From the NCBI GenBank assembly GCA_949840775.1, contig CATKXO010000007.1, positions 48,744 to 92,718 on the forward strand: DNA of 43,975 nucleotides, in the 5' to 3' direction. Of the stretch, positions 6,393 to 13,675 are shown one piece after another. Under the pieces are notes generated by a model that searched no databases, was not told the DNA's origin, and saw nothing but the letters and a program-made list of their open reading frames with translations. The stretch's first letter is position 1. Every line of letters starts with the position of its first letter. Source of the DNA: an uncultured bacterium (GTDB taxonomy: Bacteria; Bacillota; Clostridia; Oscillospirales; Oscillospiraceae). The position numbers and the translations under genes were made by a program.

Positions 6393-6860
6393 TTATTTGA
6401 TCCTTTTTCCGTTGAGGACGGCCTCCGCCAGCCGGTCCCCCTCATAGCAGACCTTCAGAGAGAAGAAGGGCGCGTCCCGCCAGATCAGGTCCAGGAAGAC
6501 GGCGTCCCCCTCCCAGTGGGGGATCTTCAGCAGCTGGTCCCGGGGCAGCCACTCCAGCACCCCCTCGTCGCACTCCCGCAGCTCCCCGGTAAACCCGTCG
6601 GCGGTAAACAGGTGCATATACTCGGTGGGCCAGCGGTCGGAGACAAAGGTGACGATTCCCCGGTAGCGGTAGCTGGTAAGGGTCAGCCCGGTCTCCTCCT
6701 CCACCTCCCGGAGCAGGCAGTCCTCGGGGCTCTCCTTGTCCAGGAACTTGCCCCCAATGCCGATCCACTTGTCCTTGTTCAGGTCGTTTTCTTTCTTCAC
6801 CCGGTGGAGCATCAGATACTCCCCGTCCCGCTGGATATAGCACAGCGTGGTGTTTATCAT
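6393..6860 (-). CDS. Nudix hydrolase (MutT / 8-oxo-dGTP diphosphatase type)
   Basis: Cytosolic pyrophosphohydrolase of nucleoside-diphosphate-linked substrates. It has 155 residues. The full Nudix box is present: GGKFLDKESPEDCLLREVEE followed by ETGL, giving the G-x5-E-x7-REUxEExGU pattern. The N-terminus (TTLCYIQRDGEYLMLHRVKK) is the common start of the 8-oxo-dGTP diphosphatase subgroup. Exact substrate cannot be read from sequence. Its ATG overlaps the htrA stop by four bases (ATGA), so it is translationally coupled to the protease and part of the two-component operon. Confidence 0.9.
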   Translation of the reverse strand: MINTTLCYIQRDGEYLMLHRVKKENDLNKDKWIGIGGKFLDKESPEDCLLREVEEETGLTLTSYRYRGIVTFVSDRWPTEYMHLFTADGFTGELRECDEGVLEWLPRDQLLKIPHWEGDAVFLDLIWRDAPFFSLKVCYEGDRLAEAVLNGKRIK

Positions 6861-8107
6861 GGCTCGATCAGCTCCACATCCACAGTATACTGCTCCCCGT
6901 CCCGCAGGCAGGTAAGGGCCACCACGTCCCCGGCCCCCAGCCCCAGCTTGAGCCGGGTCAGGTCCTGGATGCCGGTGACCGGCTGTCCGTCGGCGGCCAG
7001 GATCACGTCTCCCGCCCGCAGGCCCTTGGCCCAGGCGTCGCTGTCCTCCTCCACCTCCATCAGCTCCAGGCCGCCCCCCGCCAGGGGGACCGTGCTGACG
7101 GTAAAGCCAAAGACGCCGGCCCTGACCTCCACCCCGGCAATCAGGTGGTCCACCACATACTTCACCCGCCGGGAGGGGATGGCGAACCCCAGCCCCTCGG
7201 CGGAGCCGTCCTCGGTGACGATCTTAATGGTGTTGATGCCCATGACCTGGCCGTACTGGTTGAGCAGCGGCCCGCCGGAGTTGCCGAAGTTGATGGCGGC
7301 GCTGGTCTGGATCAGCGTCATATTGACGTTGTCCACCTCCACCTCCCGGTCCAAAGCGGAGACGATACCGTCGGTAAAGGTGGCCCGGTAGCCCAGGGAG
7401 TCCCCCAGGGCGGCCACCGGCTCGCCGATGCGCAGGTCGTTGGAGTCCCCAAAGCTGGCGGGGACCAGTCCGCTGGCCTCCACCTTCAGAACGGCCAGGT
7501 CCTCCACCGCGTTAAAGCCCACCAGCTTGGCGGGCAGGATGCGGTTGTCGTGGAGCAGCACGCGCACCGCCCTGGCTCCTGCCACCACATGGGCGTTGGT
7601 GATAATATAGCCGTCCTCCGTCAGCACCACGCCGCTCCCGGCGCTCAGGCCCTCGCCTGTAACCGACTCAATCGACACCGCAGAGGGCAGCGCCCGGTCA
7701 TAGATTTGGGCGTAGCTCAGCGCCTCCCCCCGGGCGGGCAGGAGCGTCACGGTCACCCCTGTGCCGGTGTCCGCCTTGGGGATAGAGGGGGGCGTGTCGT
7801 CCAGCGCCTCCTCCCAGGGGCGGTGGTCCTCACCGTAGGAGGGGCCGCTGTCCCAGCTCCAGTTTCGGAACAGCAGCCTGTCGGTAAAATACCGCTCCAG
7901 CAGGGCCACAGACAGGCAGGCAATCAAAATCAGGGCCAGCAGCCCTGCGAACCAGGGCCATTTCCGCCGCTGCTTCCGGACCCGCAGCACCGGGCGGGCG
8001 GGACGGACGGCCCCCGCCGGAATGCGGACGGCGGGCGGATCAGCAAACTCCCGGTCCGGGTGCTCCCAGGCGCCGCCCTGCCACAGGCCGCCGTTTCGGT
8101 TGTCCAT
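6857..8107 (-). CDS. HtrA/DegP-like S1C serine protease, membrane-anchored
   Basis: Surface quality-control protease. It has 416 residues: a cytoplasmic basic N-terminus, membrane helix at about 50-70, trypsin-like domain and one C-terminal PDZ domain. The triad is intact: H173 (ITNAHVV), D203 (VEDLAVLKV) and S277 (NFGNSGGPLL). The PDZ part contains AWAKGLRAGDVILAADG. The start ATG follows a G-rich SD that abuts a family A repeat. It is encoded directly after a response regulator and kinase, an arrangement seen in WalRK-HtrA and CssRS-HtrA loci. This suggests an envelope-stress or wall-homeostasis role (inference). Confidence 0.93.
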   Translation of the reverse strand: MDNRNGGLWQGGAWEHPDREFADPPAVRIPAGAVRPARPVLRVRKQRRKWPWFAGLLALILIACLSVALLERYFTDRLLFRNWSWDSGPSYGEDHRPWEEALDDTPPSIPKADTGTGVTVTLLPARGEALSYAQIYDRALPSAVSIESVTGEGLSAGSGVVLTEDGYIITNAHVVAGARAVRVLLHDNRILPAKLVGFNAVEDLAVLKVEASGLVPASFGDSNDLRIGEPVAALGDSLGYRATFTDGIVSALDREVEVDNVNMTLIQTSAAINFGNSGGPLLNQYGQVMGINTIKIVTEDGSAEGLGFAIPSRRVKYVVDHLIAGVEVRAGVFGFTVSTVPLAGGGLELMEVEEDSDAWAKGLRAGDVILAADGQPVTGIQDLTRLKLGLGAGDVVALTCLRDGEQYTVDVELIEP

Positions 8108-8207: not shown

Positions 8208-9650
8208 TCACGCCAGCGTCAGCGTGAAGTGGAACTGGGTCACCCCGTCCTCGCTGGTCACGGTGATGTTTTCCTTTAGGTTGCCCAGAATGGTTTTCAC
8301 AATATACAGCCCCAGGCCAACTCCCTCCCGGTCCATGGAGCGGGAGTAGTCCGCCTTGTGGAACCGCTCAAAGAGGAGGGGCAGCTCCTCCGGAGGGATG
8401 GTGGCTCCCAGGTTGCGGATGGTGGTGTGGGCCTTGCCGTCCTTCCTGGTGATCTGAACGGAGATGGCGGTGCCGGGGGCGGCAAACTTGGCCGCGTTGT
8501 CCAGCAGATTGTAGCACACCTGCGTGATGGAATCCGGGTCTCCCCACACCATCACCTTGTCCTCGGGCAGGTGGACCTCCACGTCCAGCTGCCGGTCGGT
8601 AATCTTGGTCTCCAGGCTGATGAGCACCCGTGACATGACCTCGGTGAGGTCAAAGGCCTCCTGAGCGGTAACGGTGCTCTCCGCCAGGGCGTTAAGGCGG
8701 CTGAGGTCCAGCATCCGCCGCACCAGCCGGCTGAGCCGCCTGGTCTCCGACACCACGATCTCCAGCGACTCCCGCTCCCGCTCCGGGGGGATGGTGCCAT
8801 CCAGAATGCCCTCGGCAAAGCCGGCGATGGTGGTCATGGGGGTTTTCAGCTCGTGGGAGACGTTGGCGATAAAGTCGGCCCGCTGGCTCTCCACCTTCTC
8901 CAGGGAGTTGGCCATGGAGTTGAAGGCCTCGGCCAGGTCGCTGACCTCGTCCCCCCGGTCCTCGTAGCCGGTGACCCGAACGTCAAACTCCCCCTGACCG
9001 AATTTCCGGGCGGCCTCGGCCATCTCAATAAGGGGGCGGGTCTGATAGGCGGAGGTGAGGGTGCTGGCAATCACCGAGATCAGGAAGACCACCACGGCGG
9101 AGAAAAAGAAGATGGTGGCGGTGGAGGACCACATTTCGTTCAGGTTGGAGGCGCTGGCCCCCACCAGCACAATGCCCTGGGTGACCACCACGGGCCCCAG
9201 CTGATTGGTAACAGGCAGGGCGGAGGTGTACCGCCGCTCCGGATAAATTCCCCCCAGGGAGGTCATGCCGTTATAGGCGCCCGTATTCATCACCTGGGCG
9301 ACCACGTCCTCAGGCAGCTGGCCGCTGCCGTCGGTGGAAAAGCGGCTGCCGTCGGTGGCAAAGAGAATCTTGCCGCTGCCGTCGGCCACAATAATGTGGG
9401 AGTTGGAGATCATGGCGATGGACGCCATGTAGCTGCTGTAAAACTCATCCTCTACATCCAGGGTGAGGTAGCGCCGGTAGTAGGTGGAGGTAAAGCTGGA
9501 GATATACCCCGCGTTGCGCATCACCGAGTCCCTCGTCTCCCCGATGATGTACCGGTAGGACAGCAGCATAAAGGCCCCGGCCAGCAGGGTAAAGGAGAGC
9601 AGCATAATGCTCACCATCATGGTAAGCTGGCGGCGATATAAAGAGCGCAT
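8208..9650 (-). CDS. HAMP-domain sensor histidine kinase
   Basis: 480 residues. A first membrane helix (about 9-32), an external sensor region of about 140 residues (40-175), a second helix (about 176-200), a HAMP domain (about 197-252), a HisKA domain with the phospho-acceptor H266 in NVSHELKTP, and a HATPase_c domain with N box (NLLDNAAKF) and G box (GVGLGLYIV). No PAS domain is visible, unlike typical PhoR or WalK. The start is three bases beyond the response-regulator stop, so the two are co-translated. The external domain has a Cache-like feel (IIVADGSGKILFATDGS) but I cannot assign a ligand. Confidence 0.93.
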   Translation of the reverse strand: MRSLYRRQLTMMVSIMLLSFTLLAGAFMLLSYRYIIGETRDSVMRNAGYISSFTSTYYRRYLTLDVEDEFYSSYMASIAMISNSHIIVADGSGKILFATDGSRFSTDGSGQLPEDVVAQVMNTGAYNGMTSLGGIYPERRYTSALPVTNQLGPVVVTQGIVLVGASASNLNEMWSSTATIFFFSAVVVFLISVIASTLTSAYQTRPLIEMAEAARKFGQGEFDVRVTGYEDRGDEVSDLAEAFNSMANSLEKVESQRADFIANVSHELKTPMTTIAGFAEGILDGTIPPERERESLEIVVSETRRLSRLVRRMLDLSRLNALAESTVTAQEAFDLTEVMSRVLISLETKITDRQLDVEVHLPEDKVMVWGDPDSITQVCYNLLDNAAKFAAPGTAISVQITRKDGKAHTTIRNLGATIPPEELPLLFERFHKADYSRSMDREGVGLGLYIVKTILGNLKENITVTSEDGVTQFHFTLTLA

Positions 9651-9652
9651 AA

Positions 9653-10345
9653 TTACCCCGCCGTCCCCAGCTCAAACTTATAGCCCACGCCCCACACGGT
9701 CTTCAGCCGCCACTGGTCGCTGACTCCCTCCAGCTTCTCCCGCAGGCGCTTGATGTGAACGTCCACCGTACGGCTGTCGCCGAAGTAGTCAAAGCCCCAC
9801 ACCTCGTCCAGCAGCTGGTTCCGGGTGAATACCCGGTTGGGGGAGGAGGCCAGGTGGAACAGCAGCTCCAGCTCCTTGGGCGGGGTGTCCACCCGCTGGC
9901 CGTCCACCAGCAGCTCATAGGAGTCCAGGTTGATGACCAGCTTGTCGAAGGACAGCTTCTTCTCCCCCGTCTCCTCCTCCACGCCGCTGCGGCGCAGAAC
10001 GGCGTGGATACGGGCCAGCACCTCCTTCATCTCAAAGGGCTTGACAATGTAGTCGTCCGCCCCCTGCTCCAGGCCGGACACCTTGTCCTCCGTCTCCCCC
10101 TTGGCGGTGAGCATGATGACGGGGGTCTTGTCCCCCTCCCGGATTTTTTTCAGCACAGACCAGCCGTCCATAATGGGCAGCATCAGGTCCAGCAGCACCA
10201 GGTCGGGCTGGAAGGAGCGGAACAGCTCCACCCCCTTGCCCCCGTCCTTGGCCACCTGGGTCTCAAAGCCCTCCTTCTCCAGGTAGAGGTGGAGCAGCTC
10301 GGCGATGTTGGCGTCGTCCTCGACGATCAGGACCTTTTTGGGCAT
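9653..10345 (-). CDS. OmpR/PhoB-family response regulator (PhoP/WalR-like)
   Basis: 230 residues. The receiver domain has phospho-acceptor D53 (PDLVLLDLMLP), the acidic pair DD at 10-11 and a switch Lys in the VKPFE segment. A winged-helix DNA-binding domain follows, with LLDEVWGFDYFGDSRTVDVH and a terminal VWGVGYKFE. Start: ATG 10345 with AGAGGTG seven bases upstream; the frame is open further upstream only through a repeat. The operon promoter carries tandem TTTACA/TTCACC hexamers at 11-bp spacing, a pattern that PhoP/WalR-type dimers bind, so self-activation is plausible. Same-type sites precede two tandem RNA units at 11971 and 12178. Confidence 0.93.
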   Translation of the reverse strand: MPKKVLIVEDDANIAELLHLYLEKEGFETQVAKDGGKGVELFRSFQPDLVLLDLMLPIMDGWSVLKKIREGDKTPVIMLTAKGETEDKVSGLEQGADDYIVKPFEMKEVLARIHAVLRRSGVEEETGEKKLSFDKLVINLDSYELLVDGQRVDTPPKELELLFHLASSPNRVFTRNQLLDEVWGFDYFGDSRTVDVHIKRLREKLEGVSDQWRLKTVWGVGYKFELGTAG

Positions 10346-10457: not shown

Positions 10458-10499
10458 ATTATATCGCAAAATAAATCACTTGGGTGAATAATTTGTAAA
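10458..10499 (-). promoter_or_regulatory. Promoter of the two-component operon with tandem hexamer box
   Basis: On the minus strand: TTTACA (10499-10494), five bases, TTCACC (10488-10483), 19 bases, then the -10 box TATAAT (10463-10458). There is no good -35 hexamer; the second repeat sits where one would be, as in activator-dependent PhoB/PhoP-class promoters. A weaker third repeat, TTGCCC, lies one 11-bp turn further upstream (10510-10505). Confidence 0.6.
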
Positions 10500-10523
10500 C
10501 TGGCGGGCAAAAATGCCGCCAAA

Positions 10524-11696
10524 TCAGGCCTTTTGCTCCTCCACATAGGAGTGGTCCACCTGAATTACGGGAAAATACCGGTCGGACAGCCCCTTGATCC
10601 CCCCGGCCAGGGCGGAGCGCAGCTGGCTGTCAGACAGGCGGAAGCCGTAGGGCACCACAACGTCAAAGAGGAGGTTGGTATGGATGGGCCCGGCGGTGAT
10701 GCGGAAGTCGTGGATGGTGAGGACGGGGTCCACCCCCCTGGCAATGTCCGCCACCTGCTCCCGGAGGGCCTCGGTGCGCCCGTCCCGCACCACCGGGTCC
10801 ATATGGATGCAGGTCTCCACGTGGTGCCTGGCTTTCAGCTCCCGCTCGATGTGGTCAATCACGTCGTGGAGCTCCAGAAAGTCGCCGTCGGCGGGTACCT
10901 CGGCGTGGAGGGACATCATGGCCCGGCCCGGGCCGTAGTCGTGGTACACCAAGTCGTGGATGCCCAGGATATTGTCGTGGCCCAGCACGATTCGGTCGAT
11001 GTCGGCAGCCAGCTCCCGGTCCATGGGCCGGCCCAGCAGGGGGTCCACGGTGTCCCTGGCCGCCTCCCAGCCGGTGCGCAGGATAAACAGGGCCACCGCC
11101 AGCCCCAGCCAGCCGTCCAGGGGCAGGGCGAAGAAGCGCCCGGCCAGCAGTCCCAGCAGCAGAATGCCGGTGCCCGCCGCGTCAGACAGGGAATCGGCGG
11201 CGGTGGCGGCCAGGGCGGCGGAGTCAATCAGCCGGGACAATCCCCGGTTGAACCAGAACATCCACAGCTTTACCGCCACAGAGACAGCCAGGATGACCGC
11301 CGACAGGGTGGAAAACACCACCGGCTCCGGGCGGAGAATCTTTTGGACGGAGGACTGGACCAGCTCCACCCCCACCAGCAGAATCAGCATGGCCACCACC
11401 AGGCCGGCCAGATACTCCATCCGCCCGTGGCCGAAGGGGTGCTCCCCGTCGGCCTCCTGCCCGGACAGGCGGAAGCCCACCAGAGTGACCACCGAGGAGG
11501 CCGCGTCAGACAGGTTGTTGAAGGCGTCGGCCATAATGGCGATGGACGCAGTGGCAATCCCCGCCAGGAGCTTTCCCAGAAAGAGCAGCAGGTTCAGCCC
11601 AATGCCGATTCCCCCGGACAGGGCCCCGCACTGCTGCCGGGTCTCCGGCGCCTGGGGGTCTCTGCCGCGGAGGCAAAAACGGATAAAAACGTCCAT
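10524..11696 (-). CDS. Cation diffusion facilitator (CDF) metal exporter
   Basis: Divalent-metal/proton antiporter of the inner membrane. It has 390 residues. Six hydrophobic segments fill about residues 30-215. Family landmarks: ADAFNNLSDAASS with metal-site Asp residues in the second membrane helix, HPFGHGRMEYLAG, and a second aspartate-bearing helix (ALAATAADSLSDAAGTG). A cytoplasmic C-terminal domain contains several His residues (DHIERELKARHHVETCIHMD). The metal cannot be assigned; the pattern with D rather than H in the first site resembles MntE/FieF-like members. The SD AGAGGTG lies about ten bases before the ATG. A TTGACA at 11795-11790 upstream could be a -35 box, but no good -10 box follows. 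It is transcribed separately from the two-component operon. Confidence 0.9.
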   Translation of the reverse strand: MDVFIRFCLRGRDPQAPETRQQCGALSGGIGIGLNLLLFLGKLLAGIATASIAIMADAFNNLSDAASSVVTLVGFRLSGQEADGEHPFGHGRMEYLAGLVVAMLILLVGVELVQSSVQKILRPEPVVFSTLSAVILAVSVAVKLWMFWFNRGLSRLIDSAALAATAADSLSDAAGTGILLLGLLAGRFFALPLDGWLGLAVALFILRTGWEAARDTVDPLLGRPMDRELAADIDRIVLGHDNILGIHDLVYHDYGPGRAMMSLHAEVPADGDFLELHDVIDHIERELKARHHVETCIHMDPVVRDGRTEALREQVADIARGVDPVLTIHDFRITAGPIHTNLLFDVVVPYGFRLSDSQLRSALAGGIKGLSDRYFPVIQVDHSYVEEQKA

Positions 11697-11816
11697 AATA
11701 ATGATACACCTCTATAGCTTCTGCCCCCGCCGGGAGCGGAAACACGAAAAAGAATTGGGAGTTATTATTTTCTCATAGAGGATATCATTTGTCAAGATTT
11801 CCCCACGGCGGGGAGC

Positions 11817-11920
11817 GTGCCCTGACGCGCAGTTTGTCCGGAGGTAAGCGGTAGGGGCCGCCCCGGGCGGCCCGAAGCCAGGGGAGGTGGTGCATTTGGA
11901 TGGCCGCCGGGGGCGGCGAC
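11817..11920. repeat. Family A long-form copy, right end degenerate
   Basis: Begins GTGCCCTGACGCGCA, continues to GTAGGGGCCGCCCCGGGCGGCCCGAA (11851 onward) and a second hairpin GGCCGCCGGGGGCGGC, but lacks the terminal CCCCTAC. The element at 43841-43954 has the same left extension and the same order, so the two are long relatives within family A. Confidence 0.8.
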
Positions 11921-11970
11921 AGTCAAAGGGGACCGAATTTCGGGGAAACAAGGAAAATCGTCCGGGAATG

Positions 11971-12024
11971 TTTACAAAATGTTCATGTCACCGTCATGAT
12001 TTAGCCGCATTCGTATTTTATGAT
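11971..12024 (+). promoter_or_regulatory. Pho-box-like promoter of RNA unit 1
   Basis: TTTACA (11971-11976), TTCATG (11982-11987) and GTCATG (11993-11998) repeat at exactly 11 bp. A -10 box TATGAT follows at 12019-12024. The third hexamer occupies the -35 region. Predicted transcription start is near 12031. The same layout, with the same 48-base distance from first hexamer to -10 box, recurs 207 bp downstream. Confidence 0.6.
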
Positions 12025-12030
12025 GGTACC

Positions 12031-12120
12031 GTAGTCAAGTGAATGAAATGAATGTATCTCCTTTCTCTCTCCTTTACAACACACAGGCAGACCGCCCTGG
12101 CCGAAAGCCAGGGCGGTTTG
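12031..12120 (+). ncRNA. Candidate small RNA 1 (tandem pair, copy 1)
   Basis: Predicted transcript of about 90 nt. A C/U-rich single-stranded stretch (ATCTCCTTTCTCTCTCCTTT, 12056-12075) and ACAACACACAGGC precede an 11-bp perfect hairpin ACCGCCCTGGC/GCCAGGGCGGT (12091-12117) with loop CGAAA. The T run after the hairpin is only TTT, so termination would be weak or need help. Open reading frames in it have no Shine-Dalgarno, so coding is unlikely. The C/U tract is complementary to SD sequences; for example AUCUCCUU matches AAGGAGAU before the mrp and glgP genes. Function is inferred, not shown. Confidence 0.5.
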
Positions 12121-12177
12121 CCGTCTGCTTCGGAGCGGCCCGGCTTGCGGTTTGCCGTTTAGGGATAAATGCTGGAG

Positions 12178-12231
12178 TTTACAAAAAGTTCACGTGCATG
12201 TCACGAAATTGCCGTATTTGTATTTTATGAT
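12178..12231 (+). promoter_or_regulatory. Pho-box-like promoter of RNA unit 2
   Basis: TTTACA (12178-12183), TTCACG (12189-12194), GTCACG (12200-12205) at 11-bp spacing, then TATGAT (12226-12231). Spacing is identical to unit 1 although the sequence between the hexamers differs. Confidence 0.6.
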
Positions 12232-12237
12232 GTCATC

Positions 12238-12330
12238 GTAGCCAAGCTACAGCATGTATCTCCCATTTCTCCCTCTCCTTTTACAACACACACAGGCAAA
12301 CCGCCCCGGCCAAAGGCCGGGGCGGTTTGC
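12238..12330 (+). ncRNA. Candidate small RNA 2 (tandem pair, copy 2)
   Basis: Starts GTAGCCAAGC like copy 1 (GTAGTCAAGT). It has a C/U-rich tract (12258-12281), then ACAACACACACAGGC and a 14-bp perfect hairpin AAACCGCCCCGGCC/GGCCGGGGCGGTTT (12298-12328) with loop AAA. Compared with copy 1, a T-A pair in the stem is replaced by C-G, a compensatory change that supports an RNA structure. The T run is again short. Confidence 0.5.
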
Positions 12331-12340
12331 TGTCTGTTAT

Positions 12341-12445: not shown

Positions 12446-13207
12446 ATGGACTATGACAAGCTGCTGAATATCTCTGTGGAGCTGGGCTGCCGGCTGATGT
12501 CCAGTGGGGCGGAAATTTACCGGGTAGAGGAGTCGGTGCGCCGGCTGCTCCAGGCCTACGGGCTGGACTCCCCGGAGGTATTCGCCATCCCCAACTGTGT
12601 AATCGTCAGCATCACCACGCCGGCGGGCCACCCCATCACCCGGATGCGCCGGATTGGCGGCCACGGGACGGACATCGAACTGCTGGAGCGGTGCAATGCG
12701 CTGTGCCGCCGGCTCTGCGCCCAGCCTCCCCCGGTGGAGGAGGCCCAGCGCCAGCTGTCCGCCCTGTTGGACCGCGCCCCTCAGTACGCCCCCTGGCAGG
12801 TGCTGCTGGGCTACGGGATTGCCCCCGCCTTCTTCTCCCCGCTGTTCGGTGGAGGCGCCGCAGACAGCCTGTGCGCCTTTATCGGCGGTCTGGCAGTGGG
12901 CCTGTGCCTGCTGTACGGCGGGCGCTTTCTGGGGTCCAACAGCTTTTTCCGCACCGCCGCGTGCAGCACAGTGGCCTCTCTGGCCTCCCTGACGCTGGTC
13001 CGCCTGGGCCTGGGGCACAGCGCGGACACCGTGACCATCAGCGTACTGATGGTGCTGGTCCCCGGCGTGGCCCTGACCAACGCCATGCGGGAGATCATGG
13101 CCGGTGACATCATCTCCGGCCTGAGCCGCGCCGCCGATTCGATTCTGACGGCGGCCGCCATTGCCATCGGCTCCGCCGCGGGCCTGGGGATTGTGGGAAT
13201 GCTGTAA
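12446..13207 (+). CDS. Threonine/serine exporter family protein, N-terminal half (YjjP-like)
   Basis: 253 residues. A cytoplasmic domain of about 115 residues (LLNISVELGCRLMSSGAEIY, the DUF1212 start) is followed by five hydrophobic segments. It corresponds to the first half of ThrE and to E. coli YjjP. The second half is encoded by the next gene, 12 nt downstream, so the two probably form one transporter. ThrE exports threonine and serine; YjjPB has been linked to succinate export, so the substrate here is open. The ATG at 12446 follows GGAGGGA; the open frame extends upstream only through the non-coding hairpins. Confidence 0.88.
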   Translation: MDYDKLLNISVELGCRLMSSGAEIYRVEESVRRLLQAYGLDSPEVFAIPNCVIVSITTPAGHPITRMRRIGGHGTDIELLERCNALCRRLCAQPPPVEEAQRQLSALLDRAPQYAPWQVLLGYGIAPAFFSPLFGGGAADSLCAFIGGLAVGLCLLYGGRFLGSNSFFRTAACSTVASLASLTLVRLGLGHSADTVTISVLMVLVPGVALTNAMREIMAGDIISGLSRAADSILTAAAIAIGSAAGLGIVGML

Positions 13208-13219
13208 AGGAGGAGCACT

Positions 13220-13675
13220 ATGCTTGCAGTCTGGAACGGATACATACTGCCCTGCGTCTGCGCCTTTTTGGCCTGCCTGGGCTTTACCCTGGTGTTTAAC
13301 ATCCACGGCGTGGGTAAGCTGATCTGCGGCGTGGGCGGGGCCCTGGGCTGGCTGATTTATCTGCTGGGGGGCAGCACGATTTTTGCCGCCTTTCTGGCCT
13401 CGGCGGCCATTGGGCTGTTCGCCGAGATTATGGCCCGGCTGCGCCGCTGTCCGGTCACCGGCTATCTGCTGGTGGCCCTGCTGCCCCTGGTGCCCGGCGG
13501 CGGCATCTACTACGCCATGAGCTACTGTATGGCCGGAGACACCCAGCGCTTTCTGGACACCCTGCTCCATACCTTCGGCATGGCGGCGGCGCTGGCCGTG
13601 GGCGCCATGCTCACCGCCTCCCTGTTCCGGGCGGCCTATCTCCACCTGCACCGGCCCAAACCGGCGAAAACATAA
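13220..13675 (+). CDS. Threonine/serine exporter family protein, C-terminal half (YjjB-like)
   Basis: 151 residues, four hydrophobic segments, no soluble domain. It matches the ThrE_2/YjjB half (AFLACLGFTLVFNIHG, LVPGGGIYYAM). The LVPGGGIYY loop is characteristic of the family. It is preceded by AAAGGAGG and lies 12 nt after its partner. It is the last gene of a two-gene unit that ends in a clear terminator. Confidence 0.88.
   Translation: MLAVWNGYILPCVCAFLACLGFTLVFNIHGVGKLICGVGGALGWLIYLLGGSTIFAAFLASAAIGLFAEIMARLRRCPVTGYLLVALLPLVPGGGIYYAMSYCMAGDTQRFLDTLLHTFGMAAALAVGAMLTASLFRAAYLHLHRPKPAKT

Follow-up and report, generated by a model that had tools for sequence, protein, structure and literature searches.

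The systems closest to the locus described here are CiaRH and LisRK. CiaRH of streptococci is a two-component system whose regulator, CiaR, binds direct repeats with an 11-bp period, and the five strongest CiaR promoters drive similar small RNAs (csRNAs), two of which lie in tandem in S. sanguinis; the csRNA is described as having two stem-loops and, unpaired, a segment that can base-pair with the Shine-Dalgarno sequence and the AUG (PMC3091779, PMC8186281). LisRK of Listeria is required for LhrC1-5, five near-identical RNAs with redundant UCCC motifs placed in two loops and the intervening stretch; its trigger is cell-envelope stress, the lapB mRNA is bound by LhrC with its translation impeded, the C-rich motifs of RsaE are said to pair with ribosome-binding sites, and a consensus site for LisR was not known to that study (PMC4132741).

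The window, by which is meant the whole stretch of 43,975 nucleotides that was analyzed (G000:C7:48744-92718), comes from a 2.6 Mb genome that is 97% complete. It contains a regulator, a kinase and an HtrA/DegP-like protease, all leftward and likely forming one operon, and two rightward repeat units (11971-12337), each made up of a box, TATGAT, a stretch rich in C and U, and a hairpin rich in G+C, with the core and the hairpin common to both units. The features, in window positions, are as follows.

6857..8107, minus strand: HtrA/DegP-like serine protease carrying a PDZ domain, following the kinase in the operon
8208..9650, minus strand: sensor histidine kinase (HAMP, HisKA and HATPase_c domains)
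9653..10345, minus strand: OmpR/PhoB-type response regulator (receiver and Trans_reg_C domains), the proposed binder of the boxes
10458..10463, minus strand: -10 element TATAAT of the regulator promoter, 19 bp gap from the box
10483..10499, minus strand: two-repeat box of the regulator operon, TTTACA-N5-TTCACC
10524-11696: cation-efflux transporter gene, between the regulator operon and the RNA units
11971..11998, plus strand: three-repeat box of RNA unit 1, TTTACA-N5-TTCATG-N5-GTCATG
12019..12024, plus strand: -10 element TATGAT of RNA unit 1, 20 bp gap from the box
12031..12125, plus strand: small RNA unit 1, predicted (predicted ends, the start being placed about 7 nt downstream of the -10 element; hairpin 12086-12122)
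12178..12205, plus strand: three-repeat box of RNA unit 2, TTTACA-N5-TTCACG-N5-GTCACG
12226..12231, plus strand: -10 element TATGAT of RNA unit 2, 20 bp gap from the box
12238..12337, plus strand: predicted small RNA unit 2 (predicted ends; terminator hairpin about 12297-12330)

The locus resembles CiaRH and its csRNAs in having a two-component regulator, direct repeats with an 11-bp period, similar RNAs and a tandem pair of them. It differs in that the CiaR box is TTTAAG-N5-TTTAAG with the -10 element ten nt after it, whereas the repeats here are of the GTTYAC type and stand about 20 bp from the -10 element; in that three repeats precede each RNA of the window, unlike the two-repeat box of CiaR; and in the recognition helix, which is VVEVYVSKVRKKL in CiaR and, as read by eye, RTVDVHIKRLREKL in the window regulator. 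Membership in the CiaR-csRNA family was rejected on the grounds of the repeat type and its distance from the -10 element, together with the lack of an Rfam match for the RNAs. The likeness to LisRK-LhrC lies in the combination of a two-component system with several similar RNAs carrying C-rich motifs, and the differences are that Listeria belongs to another class of bacteria and that LhrC is described as carrying its UCCC motifs in two loops and the segment joining them. PhoB/PhoP, WalR and MtrA have the same protein architecture as the window regulator, whose recognition helix is PhoB-like and whose proposed repeats are, as for those proteins, of the TTCAC/GTCAY type at an 11-bp period; unlike the case of those regulators, the box here marks RNAs and the regulator's own operon, and the protein scores below the cut-offs of the corresponding models. 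C-rich motifs are also found in the CcsR RNAs, and in this respect both RoxS/RsaE and CcsR resemble the RNAs of the window, but neither is among the window's Rfam matches. The best reading of these comparisons is that the circuit would work in the manner of CiaRH-csRNA and LisRK-LhrC with a different box, a different geometry and a different RNA.

We consider it probable that the regulator controls its own operon and also activates the tandem CU-rich RNAs through a shared box. In such a circuit the kinase would phosphorylate the response regulator, which would then most likely bind head-to-tail on the 11-bp-period GTTYAC repeats, the last of which, some two helical turns upstream of the -10 box, would replace the -35 element. 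The bound regulator would activate its own operon, consisting of regulator, kinase and probably the HtrA-like protease, as well as the two tandem small RNAs at about 12031-12337, and the RNAs would most likely pair with the ribosome-binding regions of mRNAs, lowering their translation. The trigger, by analogy with LisRK and CiaRH, is probably cell-envelope stress. A search of one open library for small RNAs in Flavonifractor, Lawsonibacter and Oscillospiraceae yielded nothing on this circuit as judged by titles and the beginnings of abstracts, and no title found for a clostridial link between a regulator, a small RNA and HtrA concerned it; within that scope of literature, no small-RNA family under the control of a regulator would have been described before in these gut Clostridia.

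The box in the window and across the genus

The period of the repeats is exactly 11 bp in all three boxes of the window, and the preliminary description, which had located these boxes and given their period and the 19-20 bp that separate them from the -10 elements, was correct to the base. The period of its hexamers is retained, but their register as first written is not, because the best-conserved register (GTTYAC/GTTCAY/GGTCAY) lies 1 base upstream. The core TTYACA-N4-RTTCAY is found 3 times in the 44 kb window compared to an expected count of 0.005 (first-order Markov model, 200 simulations), and the window boxes are beyond chance. No -35 hexamer is seen by eye 17 bp before the -10 boxes of the window, and the proximal repeat therefore seems to stand in for that element.

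The missing -35 hexamer argues against an interpretation of the repeats as an ordinary vegetative promoter or a repeated element rather than operator sites. The RNA units are tandem duplicates, and their common promoters could for that reason reflect copy history; the regulator promoter, however, is no copy of the RNA units, since it has two repeats instead of three, other flanks, and TATAAT instead of TATGAT, and the two kinds of promoter nonetheless agree in repeat sequence, period and distance. The columns of the box also exceed their flanks in conservation, with a mean information content in 28 aligned genus promoters of 1.79 bits per base for the box, 0.98 for the spacer, 0.72 for the 40 upstream bases and 0.43 for the downstream bases, where the 28 rows had been selected for box and TATAAT, a selection that removed only 2 of 30 loci. 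We therefore regard this interpretation as very improbable and take the repeats to be candidate operator sites.

Comparison of genomes shows that the putative operator is conserved together with its spacing and the genes with which it is associated. The genus set comprised 61 genomes, the one that contains the window included and many of them drafts, and it was searched with a two-repeat pattern (box and TATAAT, 1 mismatch allowed) and a three-repeat pattern (box and -10 element, 3 mismatches allowed). With the two-repeat pattern, 42 matches were obtained, spread over 41 of the 61 genomes, and 41 of the 42 lay at most 200 nt before the regulator gene, the sole match away from it being an exact one (G014:C16). 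Matches to the three-repeat pattern numbered 111 and came from 54 of the 61 genomes, with a small RNA following within 60 nt in 101 cases; the other 10 were three RNA units that had escaped detection or were truncated at the end of a contig, one regulator promoter and six places with 3 mismatches. Reversed versions of both patterns produced 0 matches each in the 61 genomes, and at the same stringency the window's own genome contained the three boxes of the window alone, with no other gene preceded by a box.

All 30 regulator loci fetched from the 57 genus genomes that have the regulator carry the two-repeat box, once per locus. TATAAT follows RTTCAY at 20 nt in 28 of these loci and at 21 nt in 2, in a count for which the script searched for TATAAT itself. 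Upstream of the RNAs, the three-repeat box (called at 26 or more of 30 positions, 7 of these being free) is present in 94 of 94 distinct unit copies having at least 100 nt of upstream sequence, and TANNNT stands exactly 19 nt past GTCAYGA in all 94, as TATGAT in 48. These 94 exclude four loci judged to match by chance (L079, L083, L088, L099), a unit at a contig edge and, out of 95 units, the one whose upstream region was short. They are not independent, some species being present in two collections, so that the number of units does not give a number of species. Of the 62 RNA-core matches in the named genome collection, 57 carry the box, and the 5 without it are in records of other or unknown taxa. 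The enrichment of the box near orthologues of the regulator, which the preliminary description had set beforehand as a test of its proposal, is thus evident in the genus, and the spacing is kept in relatives as that proposal expected.

Two further places resemble the box in part. The core TTTACA-N5-TTCATG is found in the window's genome upstream of a gene which appears by eye to be murA-like (L003:1501-1560, G000:C12:26473), where a separate TTGCAA-17-TATAAT promoter lies downstream of the box core and the spacing is unlike that of the other boxes; the gene is a possible cell-wall target. In four genomes (G031, G082, G001 and G065; L193-L196) the leader of a lipoprotein-like gene contains two of the three repeats, correctly spaced from TATGAT, and since the entire leader is conserved in these genomes, a box is not separable from it.

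The regulator and its association with the RNAs

The preliminary description had assigned the regulator to the PhoB/PhoP/WalR type. The assignment to the OmpR/PhoB family holds, as both domains pass (Response_reg with 105.3 versus 30.2 bits, Trans_reg_C with 93.7 versus 26.2), but the narrower ones fail at the equivalog cut-offs: the protein scores 227.8 bits with the PhoB phosphate regulator model TIGR02154 (cut-off 296.2) and 225.1 bits with the WalR/YycF model NF040534 (cut-off 340). MtrA was rejected as well (NF040689, 243.4 bits, cut-off 300), and a search of solved structures with the regulator placed RegX3 and MtrA on top. A phosphate role is a poorer fit and is not supported, given the score below the PhoB cut-off and the lack of any PF12849 (PstS-type) protein in the window's genome at 97% completeness, compared with 13 of 14 control genomes that have one.

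An orthologue of the regulator is present in 57 of the 61 genus genomes (two of them partial or split). Regulator and RNA are both present in 54 genomes, the regulator alone in 3, the RNA alone in 1 and neither in 3, which corresponds to a Fisher p of 0.002, uncorrected for relatedness and assembly gaps. The genomes with the regulator alone (G029, G074, G075) have the box and no recognisable RNA, and no regulator was found in the genome with the RNA alone (G009, 94% complete). Where both are on one contig, an RNA unit lies at most 5 kb from the regulator in 43 of 45 genomes. The kinase gene immediately follows that of the regulator in each of 15 genus neighbourhoods, and in 14 of them the HtrA-like protease comes after the kinase (the exception being L246).

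Outside the genus, 26 genomes were analyzed, 24 of the same family and 2 of other families, each of which has one match to the regulator at E 1e-60 (64-90% identical). The kinase directly follows in 24 of the 26, the exceptions being L273 (1.3 kb gap) and L292 (no match), and kinase and protease usually come after the regulator. When 1 mismatch was allowed in the box and 1 in the -10 element, up to about 370 nt upstream, box and -10 element were found before the regulator in 18 of the 26 genomes (17 of 24 in the same family, 1 of 2 in the others), and 8 of the 26 failed this test. The protease, for which a homologue search found many relatives, has a box of its own in three outside genomes of three genera (L278, L282, L286) and none in the window, and it is a probable further target of the regulator in some genera. 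The three-repeat pattern gave 18 matches in the outside genomes, 7 of which precede other genes or no nameable gene (L249 was left out of this reading).

RNAs are also associated with the box beyond the genus. In 4 genomes of genus g27, a model of the RNA alone, which contains no promoter sequence, found a distant relative of the RNA with the box upstream of it. The box search found, in the same genomes, another CU-rich RNA that is unlike the first; it ends in a terminator whose sequence varies among the genomes while its pairing is kept. A box, a CU-rich stretch and a hairpin follow one another in G233, G302 and G096, in the last two just behind the kinase gene; these series, which were read by eye, are only suggestive of box-driven RNAs.

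It might be supposed that a different OmpR-type regulator binds the boxes and that the two-component operon is merely one among the targets of that protein. OmpR-type proteins bind similar repeats, and, counting the regulator itself, the window's genome contains 11 proteins that match it at E 1e-30 or better. Against this stand the near exclusivity of the two-repeat box to the regulator gene, with which it is kept into other genera, the proximity of the RNA units to that gene, and the lack, at the stringency of the pattern searches, of any further gene with a box in the window's genome, and we consider a different binder improbable. The control of the operon and the RNA pair by the regulator of this locus, as first suggested in the preliminary description, is instead supported by co-conservation, and the regulator is likely to activate both, because the putative operator has been retained in front of the regulator's own operon in several genera and otherwise marks almost only the neighbouring RNAs.

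The predicted CU-rich RNAs and their possible targets

The predicted RNAs are 95-100 nt in length and contain, between the 5' end and the terminator, a CU-rich tract with several CUCC motifs, which is open in unit 2 and partly in a weak predicted stem in unit 1. Unit 2 begins with a 5' hairpin (GUAGC..GCUAC), followed by the open tract and the terminator hairpin. The terminator covaries, with double changes that keep the pairing in 16 of 16 pairs, which is what a terminator should show, while the stem of the 5' hairpin of unit 2 is invariant by eye and gives no covariation signal. A linker, ACAACACACA, is conserved about as strongly as the CU-rich tract. In the putative operator common to the regulator and RNA promoters and in the CU-rich tract, the RNAs have, as far as can be judged from sequence, two properties of a two-component-controlled class of CU-rich RNAs.

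Comparison also shows that these predicted RNAs are conserved. Searched for at the DNA level in 60 genomes, the window's own included, the unit was present in 34, all of them among the 37 of the genus, and in 0 of 23 from other families of the order; named records with the unit include Lawsonibacter, Pseudoflavonifractor, Flavonifractor, Flintibacter and Colidextribacter. A covariance model built from 62 of 82 non-redundant units gave matches at E 0.01 in 60 of the 61 genus genomes, many of the weak ones being plain terminators, and at 43 bits or more it marked 108 places in 56 genomes. The matches in G029, G074 and G075 were rejected as terminators behind protein genes, and removal of the two of these genomes that were among the 56 (G029 and G075) leaves 54 genomes, with two units in 44, three in 4 and one in 6; G079 has an additional unit below 43 bits with a full box. 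Tandem units within 400 nt are found in 29 genus genomes. An order-wide search with the model (295 genomes, the window's own included, under the more stringent filters applied to searches of that size) gave matches at E 1e-8 in the window's genome, 4 genomes of g27, G101 and G210; inspection by eye revealed no box at G101 and G210, and these two were left out of the family. The sequence in G210, from another family (L160:1500-1580), is CU-rich with a terminator and matches the model weakly (44.8 bits). Rfam gave 0 matches above the gathering score in the window, and none of the 14 weak matches was near its cut-off; a CcsR1 match in L256 was rejected as weak (22 versus 65 bits) and as lying on the other strand from the RNA there.

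Taken in reverse complement, the core of unit 2 gives a ribosome-binding site and then an ATG, which suggests control at translation starts. A search of both strands of the 61 genomes for exact 13-base complements of the core, in which most matches were the RNA genes themselves, found 13 sites outside RNA genes. Of these, 6 clearly coincide with ribosome-binding sites, each of a different gene, and the complements thus point to no conserved target. The pairing of the CU-rich tract with a consensus ribosome-binding sequence showed no excess over shuffled tracts (117 and 185 of 500 were as good), and since shuffled tracts pair equally well, this pairing is explained by base composition and not by base order.

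The RNAs could instead bind a protein or encode short peptides, an alternative with which the conservation of the linker is compatible and which could draw on a short frame that opens with an ATG in unit 2. A peptide is unlikely in that the frame, its length and its start differ, by eye, between the units and among relatives, and the alternative as a whole is judged unlikely, base pairing with mRNAs being the preferred mode of action.

More tentatively, the regulator, kinase, HtrA-like protease and CU-rich RNAs may form an envelope-stress circuit that extends across the family, in which the RNAs would be the main output of a nearly dedicated regulator and might brake translation initiation broadly instead of acting on a few fixed mRNAs. 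The RNA sequences would then turn over rapidly while operator, geometry and architecture persist, and the circuit would possibly be a third realisation of the CiaRH/LisRK design, built independently of the other two. If this is true, a third instance of a sensor, HtrA and RNAs would argue that the design is favoured, and the strictness of the box would make the regulon of a family-wide regulator predictable.

Beyond the RNA pair, the window contains a split pair of ThrE-type exporter genes (12446-13675), and the start of the second of these genes (TGCTGTAAAGGAGGAGCACTATG) is similar to the complement of the RNA core.
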